From the NCBI GenBank assembly GCA_013335115.1, contig JAAXWQ010000003.1, forward strand, positions 186,001 through 250,000: 64,000 nt of DNA. Direction: 5' to 3'. Both the position numbers and the translations under genes were made by a program. Every line of letters begins with the position of its first letter. Position 1 is the stretch's first letter. Of this stretch, positions 50,704 through 58,060 are shown piece after piece. The DNA comes from Chlorobiaceae bacterium. GTDB taxonomy: Bacteria; Bacteroidota; Chlorobiia; Chlorobiales; Chlorobiaceae. The notes under the pieces were generated by a model, which worked only from the letters and a program-made list of their open reading frames with translations, ran no database searches and had not been told where the DNA came from.

Positions 50704-51033
50704 TCAGGTTGATTTTTCGCAGGAACCGATGACGTCGACATCGTCCTTCTTCAGGATCTGGCAGCACTTGCAGACGATGGCGTGCAACTCGCTGACGGCA
50801 GCTCCGGCAACGATCTTCTCCGTGGCGTTCTTGATCTCGTGCCGGTAATCACGGCTTTTGATGTTCTGCTGGCCCCGTTTCTTGTGCAGGTACTGGGAAA
50901 CCGCCGCTGGCGTGACGCCCAGCAGCATCGCCGCTTTTGACTGCGTCATGCCGGTCTTGACCAGTTCCTTGGCAAGGTCGGCCCTGATCTGGGGCAGGTA
51001 ATACCATACAGCTTTTTCACAGGGAAAAATCAT
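50704..51033 (-). CDS. Cys-rich HTH transcriptional regulator heading the ccs operon
   Basis: A 109-residue protein. A helix-turn-helix of XRE type (about 20-55; MTQSKAAMLLGVTPAAVSQYLHKKRG) precedes a basic helix and a C-terminal metal- or redox-like cluster: Cys-x-Cys-Cys (VCKCCQ) near 90 and a further Cys near 105, plus Cys5 at the N-terminus. Compact HTH proteins with such Cys sets occur in archaea and anaerobes and bind metal or Fe-S, but no exact family was assigned. It is separated from resB by four bases and divergent from a haem-binding protein gene, so control of cytochrome c maturation by redox or metal state is inferred. Confidence 0.75.
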   Translation of the reverse strand: MIFPCEKAVWYYLPQIRADLAKELVKTGMTQSKAAMLLGVTPAAVSQYLHKKRGQQNIKSRDYRHEIKNATEKIVAGAAVSELHAIVCKCCQILKKDDVDVIGSCEKST

Positions 51034-55293: not shown

Positions 55294-56523
55294 ATGCATC
55301 AATGTCCGGTAACCGGCTTACCGATCACCGAAAGAAGCCAATGGAGTTTTGATAGCCCGAAAGGAGACTATACAAAAAAATTCACGCTGATCGGCAAAGA
55401 CATCATCCACGTCGAAAAAAGCGCCAATCACGGCATTGTCCTCGAGCACCTCGACCAGGCGACACTTTCGGTACTGGTAAAGGAAGAGAAGCTTTCCGGC
55501 AAGCCGTTGCACATCCTGATCGACTGCACGAACATTGCCGGCTTCAACTACGCATACAAGAAGGAATTCACCAACATCATCTTCAACTGGAACCCCGATT
55601 TCAAGATCGTCGTGTTCTATAACATCGATCCCGAGATCAGGCTCCAGCTCGAAATGCTCCGCTCCATAGCCCCCCATGGCCTCACCTTCGTGATGAGCGA
55701 CACCTATGAAGAGGCCATCTCCGGCATCATGGCCTTCAAATCGGGAAAAACGCCCGAAGTCGACGGCCGGGAAACACGCGGGGGCCAGGACCCGCTCATC
55801 AGGGCAGAGTTCCTGTCGACCCTGGCCAGGATGGCATGGCTGAAGATGTTTGACCAGCAGATCTATCTTCCACCTGAAACCCACGTATCCTGGCTGTTCT
55901 TCAAGGCACTCGAAGCCATACAGGGCGACTTCAAGGCCATGGAACTCGAACATGAAACGATACTGGATCGGGCTGTCGACGACTGCCGGCACCAACTTGC
56001 CCAGAAAACAACAGCACTGAACGCCCAGATAGAGCTCAACCGGAAAAACGCACAGCAGTTCCGGGAAGAACGGCTTGCGCTGGCATCAAGGGTTTCGACC
56101 CATGATTTCGAATCGACCAGGATTTCGATGGCCAATGCGGAGAAGACATCGGCCCTGAAGAACTTGTGTGAACTGATCGCCGACCTTGATGCCGATCCTC
56201 AAATCAAGCAGAAGCTCACGAGCTACTGCCTCAACCTCGTGGAAACCGGCCAGAAAGAGCAACAGCTCAACACCGAACTCACCGAAGCGGATACGGCATT
56301 CATTTCGATGCTGCAGAAAAAACATCCGAACCTGAATCAGCGCGAACTGAGAATCTGCCTTCTGATAAAACTCGACTACAACTCCCGCGACATTTCACGC
56401 ATGATGGGCCTGTCAGTCAGGGGGATAGAGAGCACCAGGTATCGACTCCACCGTAAAATAGGTATCGACAAACATCGCTCAATGAAAACCTATCTGACAA
56501 ACCTGCCGATAGCCAACTACTGA
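55294..56523 (+). CDS. LuxR-type regulator with unknown sensor domain, copy 1
   Basis: A 409-residue protein with three parts. The N-terminal domain (about 1-165) opens CPVTGLPITERSQW and has a mixed alpha/beta pattern (LIDCTNIAGFNYAYKKEF, FKIVVFYNIDPEIR) recalling STAS-like folds. A charged coiled coil follows (about 215-325), and a C-terminal LuxR/GerE-like HTH has NQRELRICLLIKLDYNSRDI and GIESTRYRLHRKIGIDKHRS. There is no receiver domain and no membrane segment, so it should be a cytoplasmic sensor-regulator. A close paralogue lies 316 bp downstream. No known family was assigned; the ligand and targets are unknown. Confidence 0.75.
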   Translation: MHQCPVTGLPITERSQWSFDSPKGDYTKKFTLIGKDIIHVEKSANHGIVLEHLDQATLSVLVKEEKLSGKPLHILIDCTNIAGFNYAYKKEFTNIIFNWNPDFKIVVFYNIDPEIRLQLEMLRSIAPHGLTFVMSDTYEEAISGIMAFKSGKTPEVDGRETRGGQDPLIRAEFLSTLARMAWLKMFDQQIYLPPETHVSWLFFKALEAIQGDFKAMELEHETILDRAVDDCRHQLAQKTTALNAQIELNRKNAQQFREERLALASRVSTHDFESTRISMANAEKTSALKNLCELIADLDADPQIKQKLTSYCLNLVETGQKEQQLNTELTEADTAFISMLQKKHPNLNQRELRICLLIKLDYNSRDISRMMGLSVRGIESTRYRLHRKIGIDKHRSMKTYLTNLPIANY

Positions 56524-56839
56524 CAAACAGGCAACCCTGATTCCGGTCTGCAATTCCAGGGCTATTCCGGCCATGGAAACGTGTTCGGCGGTGAAGCCAG
56601 GCCAACAATACGTCAATTGTCACAAAATATAACAGCAATATTACGCCAATTCAGTAATAAACAGCAAAAACAAGCACCAAACGCCAAAAAACCCCGACAA
56701 CACACACAATATGGAAGTGAATTTGTTTAGGATAAATAACGATGAATCTTTATCATGACTCAACACCTGCATCATTACGTCTAAGAACACTTCATGACAG
56801 GTGCACTTTATACCGTAACAACGATATACTTCACCACAC
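56524..56839. other. AT-rich spacer between the tandem regulator genes
   Basis: 316 bases of low-GC sequence. No open frame of coding character, no RNA and no hairpin of note was found on either strand. The most A+T-rich part (56616-56760) contains direct runs such as ACAAAATATAACAGCAATATTACG. It probably holds the promoter of the second regulator gene; GC drops well below both genes, hinting at acquired or regulatory DNA. Confidence 0.5.
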
Positions 56840-58060
56840 ATGAAAACCTGCCCAACGTCCGGCCTGCCGGTCACCGCCAAACCTCACTGGAAATCCGAAC
56901 ATCCCGGATACACCAAGCACCTTGAACTGATAGGAAACGATATCCTGCACGCATACGTCGAAGCAACCCAGCCGGTGACCCTCGATACCATGAGCAACGA
57001 AGTGGTTAAAACCATTATCAAGGAAAGCGGGCTGCAAGACACGATGCTTTACTCGATCTGGGACATGAAGAACGTCGTCGACATATCCTATAATTACAAG
57101 CAGGGAATCAATGACCTGATCTACCACCAGGGACCAAGGTTCGTGGCCGTCGTGTTCTTCAATATCGAACCAGCCTGCAGGATAATCCTTGAAACCTTTG
57201 CGGCCATTGTGCCGAACGACATGACCGTGCTGCTCAGGGAGGACTACGGGGATGCCATCCGGACCATCACTGATTTCAAGTCAGGGAAAGGGGAAGAGGC
57301 CCGGCATACCGGGCAGGGAACCAATAGTGATTCCATCCTGAAAAATGAATTCCTTGCTGCCGTCGCCAGGATTTCATGGCTGAACATGCTCAACCAGCAA
57401 ATCCCCCTGCCTCCGGCAGAAAGCCCGTACTACCCTTACTTCAAAGCTATCGCACACTTGCAGGAAGACCTGAAGGCGCGCGAAGCGCTTCAGGAAAAGG
57501 ATTTGCAGCACCTGAAGGGGGACAGCGAGCAGCGCCTGACCCAGAAAATCATCCTCCTGAACGCCCAGGTCGAACTCAACAGGAAGGAACAGCAACAGTT
57601 CGCACAGGAAAAAGCTGCGCTGAAATCGAGGATCTCGGCACAGGAGATGGAGCTGACCAGGATCTCGACGGCCGTCGGTGAAAAGAGCGCAGCCCTGCAC
57701 CTGCTCTGCGACCAGATCAAGGGCCTGGACATCGAACAGCACTCCAAGCACCGGATGATCGAGCAGTGCCAGGGAATGCTTGAGACCGAACTGACCGAAA
57801 AAAGGCTCAAGACGGAGTTGACGACCGGTGACTCCGAGTTCCTTTCGAAGCTGCAGAAGAGGCATCCCAACCTCAACCAGCGTGAGCTTCGTGTCGGCTT
57901 GATGGTAAAGCTGAATTACGACACCAGGGAGATCGCCCGCTCAATCGGCATCTCGACCCGCGGTATGGAGAGCATCCGCTACCGGATGCACAAAAAGCTG
58001 AAACTCGACAAGCACAAGTCGATCAAGACCTACCTCTCCGAGCTCGCCGAAGAGCGCTGA
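56840..58060 (+). CDS. LuxR-type regulator with unknown sensor domain, copy 2
   Basis: 406-residue paralogue of the gene at 55294, collinear over its full length. The N-terminus reads CPTSGLPVTAKPHW, the middle has MLYSIWDMKNVVDISYNYKQG and FVAVVFFNIEPACRI, and there is a long coiled coil (about 220-330). The C-terminal HTH has NQRELRVGLMVKLNYDTREIARSIG and GMESIRYRMHKKLKLDKHKSIK. Two paralogues in tandem suggest a duplication followed by divergence, or a heteromeric pair. It is close to a convergent aldehyde dehydrogenase gene. Confidence 0.75.
   Translation: MKTCPTSGLPVTAKPHWKSEHPGYTKHLELIGNDILHAYVEATQPVTLDTMSNEVVKTIIKESGLQDTMLYSIWDMKNVVDISYNYKQGINDLIYHQGPRFVAVVFFNIEPACRIILETFAAIVPNDMTVLLREDYGDAIRTITDFKSGKGEEARHTGQGTNSDSILKNEFLAAVARISWLNMLNQQIPLPPAESPYYPYFKAIAHLQEDLKAREALQEKDLQHLKGDSEQRLTQKIILLNAQVELNRKEQQQFAQEKAALKSRISAQEMELTRISTAVGEKSAALHLLCDQIKGLDIEQHSKHRMIEQCQGMLETELTEKRLKTELTTGDSEFLSKLQKRHPNLNQRELRVGLMVKLNYDTREIARSIGISTRGMESIRYRMHKKLKLDKHKSIKTYLSELAEER

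Follow-up and report, generated by a model that had tools for sequence, protein, structure and literature searches.

What kind of input controls two neighbouring LuxR-type regulators that carry neither a receiver nor an autoinducer-binding domain? The pair lies on the forward strand of the window (the whole 64,000-nucleotide stretch of Chlorobiaceae DNA analysed here) and consists of gene A (55294..56523), which encodes a 409-residue protein with a STAS-like domain, a long helix and a LuxR-type helix-turn-helix (HTH), and its 406-residue paralogue gene B (56840..58060), both open reading frames with an ATG start. That the two are collinear paralogues, as the original prediction held, is confirmed by BLASTP (42% identity and 61% positives over 404 residues, E=1e-112), and both open with the predicted CPxxGLPxT start, read as CPVTGLPIT in A (55294..55329, +) and CPTSGLPVT in B (56840..56875, +). 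The predicted FNIxPxxR motif likewise occurs in each, as FYNIDPEIR in A and FFNIEPACR in B. The genes have the same orientation and are 316 bp apart; given this gap and a promoter-like block before B, they are probably transcribed separately. Pfam and NCBIfam searches of A and B return no receiver, kinase or autoinducer-binding domain and Pfam no Reg_prop or Y_Y_Y input domain; no receiver with a phospho-Asp was matched, the response-regulator models aligning by their HTH parts only. Since the highest 19-residue Kyte-Doolittle means are 0.83 in A and 1.43 in B, neither protein has a membrane helix, so that the predicted absence of receiver, kinase and membrane segment holds. The nearest named contigs by similarity belong to Chlorobaculum sp. 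24CR, other Chlorobi MAGs and Chlorobium ferrooxidans. Elsewhere in the window, the reverse strand at 50704-51033 encodes a small HTH_3-type protein of 109 residues with a CKCC motif close to the C-terminus; its neighbours include ResB-like and haem-binding genes.

We find that the N-terminal region of both proteins is a strongly diverged STAS domain, as judged from a predicted structure and an independent profile comparison. It spans residues 24-148 of B (56909..57283, +), where AlphaFold, Foldseek and hhalign place it, and residues ~24-150 of A (55363..55743, +), where it follows from alignment, the model of the paralogue and profile comparison. The AlphaFold model of B residues 1-155, built from eight homologues and predicted rather than experimental, has a pLDDT of 88 and a pTM of 0.84. 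Its leading Foldseek matches in the PDB are STAS/SpoIIAA-like (2q3l, at E 6e-4, 2ook, 1tid, 4hyl, 1th8 and 1h4z), with tocopherol-transfer and Sec14 proteins, which have a related fold, lower in the list; the TM values of 0.48-0.65 are significant, not strong. In accordance, an hhalign comparison of the domain, as a profile of 55 sequences, with 19 STAS domains of related genomes gives E 1.8e-4 and a score of 28.8, a value that none of 60 column-shuffled controls reached (11.3 +/- 2.0) and that lies about 9 SD above them, at a probability of 48%, again significant and not strong. Against 21 SpoIIAA-like (PF11964) sequences the E-value is 0.014, and against a smaller set 0.026-0.028. A sequence search of the PDB with the domain gave no match. 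Weak and scattered Pfam matches to EH and ARC6 were rejected, and DUF7793 appeared in one member at E 0.065, while a search of the family with it matched nowhere, controls included. The domain thus shares with STAS (PF01740) and SpoIIAA-like domains (PF11964, former DUF3478) the order of the fold, besides the Foldseek and hhalign similarity, yet it is missed by both Pfam models (STAS matched none of 55 members and the SpoIIAA-like model was likewise silent), lacks a conserved phospho-serine, carries an extra N-terminal CPxxGLP/hairpin extension, and is fused to a coil and an HTH, whereas known STAS domains stand alone or on a transporter. The alpha/beta region had been called STAS-like, and rightly so. 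It had also been called an undescribed sensor, which is true of the sequence family, for which neither Pfam nor NCBIfam offers a credible name, and untrue of the fold, which the model assigns to STAS; the clear match to a characterised family that would count against the prediction accordingly exists at the level of the fold and not at that of the sequence family.

C-terminal to this domain, the full-length model of B has a 97-residue helix (residues 198-294; 57431..57721, +), a second helix at residues 300-323 and then the HTH; alignment to this model places the long helix of A at residues 200-296 (55891..56181, +). Heptad periodicity reaches significance in residues 240-294 alone and only as a family average (p=0.0005), corresponding to 57557-57721 (+) in B and ~56017-56181 (+) in A, and in the single-sequence test it is significant in neither protein. 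The long coiled coil of the original prediction therefore survives as a long helix, whose heptads are confined to its last part; this part is exactly what relatives without a sensor have kept. The HTH itself occupies residues 330-406 of A (56281..56511, +) and 328-404 of B (57821..58051, +). Pfam and NCBIfam see a LuxR/GerE HTH in the two proteins weakly (Pfam E 0.014-0.038, below the gathering score), GerE was matched in 19 of 21 members scanned (best E 3e-4), and Foldseek matches the fold, a tetrahelical GerE-type HTH, to the DNA-binding domains of VraR, LiaR, NarL and ComA at TM (target) 0.7-0.83, and also to GerE, in line with the Bacteroidota-style LuxR-type HTH that was predicted. Because the DNA-recognition residues R374, E377, R380 and R382 (B numbering) are invariant in 116 of 116 full-length proteins, A and B probably read the same DNA sites. 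The HTH fold and GerE similarity are common to NarL/FixJ (LuxR-type) regulators such as VraR, LiaR, GerE and NarL, from which A and B differ in having neither of the receiver and autoinducer-binding domains. As a module, the coil-HTH half is common among Bacteroidota: its best matches outside the family include proteins of 915-994 residues (E about 1e-21 to 3e-23), and two of three such relatives scanned carry Reg_prop and Y_Y_Y domains. These one-component regulators take their input through a propeller and Y_Y_Y, whereas in the A/B family the input is a STAS domain and membrane helices are absent.

How widespread is this combination? We compared 86 Chlorobiaceae genomes, 21 Chlorobaculum-like (own genus) and 65 Chlorobium-type (sister genus). 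The N-terminal domain is present in 78 and the coil-HTH half in all 86, several genomes carrying 2-5 copies of the latter. All 12 genomes from sister families lacked the domain, and profile searches of 309 and ~230 further Bacteroidota genomes produced no credible match; matches in the phylum outside Chlorobiaceae, at E 0.004-0.5, were rejected as chance, most lying in stop-riddled frames. A tblastn search of plasmids, made with 60 residues of the N-terminal region to look for relatives beyond the phylum, matched nothing. Throughout the family the genes occupy one syntenic locus, pabA - NTP_transf_4 - DAGK - LMWP - [A, B] - ALDH - RsgA - RecG. The pair thus represents a real and well-conserved family of regulators, specific to this lineage, whose input domain is a diverged STAS. 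Conservation is uneven along the proteins: within one genome A and B are 28% identical in the N-terminal domain, 43% in the coil and 67% in the HTH, and the corresponding values for B across genomes are 65%, 77% and 94%. B is the more conserved member of the pair.

Many sister-genus genomes also encode proteins of ~170 residues that comprise residues ~240-406 only, often exactly at the position of B, adjoining ALDH (L123, L129, L131, L133-L137, L139-L151, L153, L154, L157 and L159-L164); such sensorless derivatives at the position of the second gene are a new observation of this analysis. In a tree of the C-terminal part they fall inside the B-related clade on short branches, and are therefore well conserved and slow-evolving. 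Their start codon corresponds to an internal Met that 42 of the 76 full-length proteins of the sister genus contain. Ahead of 14 sensorless genes, the immediately adjacent DNA aligns in register with full-length coil-coding sequence and looks like a decayed version of it (two alignments at E < 0.01, the others weaker; shuffled controls E 2.5 or worse). A fifteenth match, in G062, was set aside, because there a contig end interrupts a full-length gene. The shared Met and the in-register upstream resemblance support an origin of the sensorless genes by 5' truncation of a full-length gene; initiation at the internal Met within full-length genes is a conjecture. A further sensorless paralogue lies away from the conserved locus in Chlorobium ferrooxidans (L006:5971-6441).

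The region upstream of gene B contains a conserved block (56745-56842) with a -10-like hexamer, TATCAT (56751..56756, +; TAT(A/C/T)AT across the 21 own-genus genomes), and, between it and the gene, a 40-bp inverted repeat, CACCTG...CAGGTG (56764..56803, +). Box and repeat precede B in nearly all 21 of these genomes; the exact repeat motif was not found in the sister genus, nor does the region upstream of gene A have such an element. A search of the genome allowing up to 3 mismatches finds the repeat in a single copy, so it yields no list of targets. Rfam has no match to the element, and sigma70 and terminator scans stay at chance level. The CACC just before the ATG of B could pair with the same AGGTG of the repeat. 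The main hairpin shows one double change, not above the shuffled expectation, and the alternative hairpin near the start codon four double-changed cells, reached by 21 of 500 shuffles. The repeat is possibly an autoregulatory operator or a hairpin in the 5' UTR of the transcript, between which the covariation is too weak to decide.

How would the STAS domain act? A classical partner switch, in which a STAS Ser/Thr is the target of an anti-sigma/anti-anti-sigma kinase and its phosphorylation toggles the HTH, would suit the fold, and canonical STAS proteins with DSSG motifs are encoded in the same genomes. The DSSG-type phospho-serine marks the anti-sigma-antagonist subgroup, not every STAS domain. 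In the family the aligned column, B residue 85 in a register that rests on a single hhalign alignment, is not such a phosphorylatable serine but varies among the 116 full-length proteins (S 28, N 21, R 14, Q 11) and is followed by an almost invariant Tyr86-Lys87 in place of Gly-Leu. A SpoIIAA-type phospho-switch is for these reasons unlikely, and, since the scan of neighbouring genes recognised none for a protein kinase, we regard the complete kinase-driven switch as quite improbable. The idea that Cys4 and the CPxxGLP start form a redox or metal sensor is the least credible of those considered. It draws on the retention of CP in nearly all Chlorobaculum-like copies (38 of 40: 17/19 for A and 21/21 for B), and is opposed by its presence in only 16 of 76 full-length sister-genus copies and absence from the other 60, by its replacement in two A copies, and by the single Cys of the motif. 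As only some members have this start, the ligand role suggested for Cys4 cannot apply to the family in general. Since the phospho-serine is not conserved and Cys4 is missing from most Chlorobium-type members, the STAS domain probably works by binding a ligand or a partner protein.

Does the domain receive a signal at all? It might serve for oligomerisation or docking, regulation then following from the amounts of A, B and sensorless proteins; in favour of this, its sequence drifts fast beside a nearly fixed HTH, and it is dispensable in the eight genomes that lack any N-terminal domain and keep coil-HTH forms only, seven of them at least 97% complete. W17, I35, Y86, K87, N108 and Y136 are nonetheless 94-99% conserved over 116 copies, which suggests a preserved surface or pocket, and we hold a purely structural role to be unlikely. 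Gene A, in turn, could be a decaying duplicate beside a B that alone is functional: it evolves faster, two own-genus genomes have B only, and in G049 the A-position copy (L093:4973-6231) is split in two overlapping frames, likely a frameshifted pseudogene. Against such decay, A stands beside B with intact frames in 19 of 21 genomes and its HTH is 82% conserved, so that this, too, appears very improbable.

With the STAS fold, the paralogy, the family-wide synteny, the near-invariant HTH and the sensorless derivatives established by computation, we favour, at a probability of about 0.6, the reading that A and B are cytoplasmic regulators of transcription, in which a STAS input is followed by a helix with a terminal coiled coil and by an HTH of the NarL/FixJ type, and which share sites, answer different inputs and act as homodimers, possibly also as heterodimers. 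The coil would make the dimers, the STAS domain would operate by binding a partner protein or small ligand and not as a SpoIIAA serine-phosphorylation switch, and this binding would alter the seating of the HTHs on DNA. Action on the same or overlapping sites in answer to different inputs is what we would expect from identical recognition residues joined to such dissimilar input domains. Heterodimerisation or competition between A and B is plausible in view of the shared coil, the invariant recognition residues and the sensorless relatives; the sensorless coil-HTH protein at the B position in the sister genus could be a signal-independent partner or a competitor for the same sites. More tentatively, and with more doubt than belief, the whole lineage may possess a switch in which sensor-bearing and sensorless forms share a DNA code and meet in mixed dimers or competition, the sensorless form having arisen by loss of the 5' half and the internal Met perhaps giving an isoform.

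The family combines known parts and is neither a new kind of regulator nor a new fold. A literature search on STAS-LuxR or Chlorobium LuxR regulators returned nothing relevant within the papers searched, and how green sulfur bacteria regulate their genes is, to our knowledge, little understood. Given that the family is kept in 86 of 86 Chlorobiaceae genomes, at one conserved locus and with nearly unchanged DNA-reading residues, it makes a good candidate core regulator of the phototrophic Chlorobiaceae. It provides an example of a STAS domain fused to a LuxR-type HTH and of evolution toward sensorless forms, in which the idea that truncation of a gene creates dominant-negative or constitutive partners could be tested.
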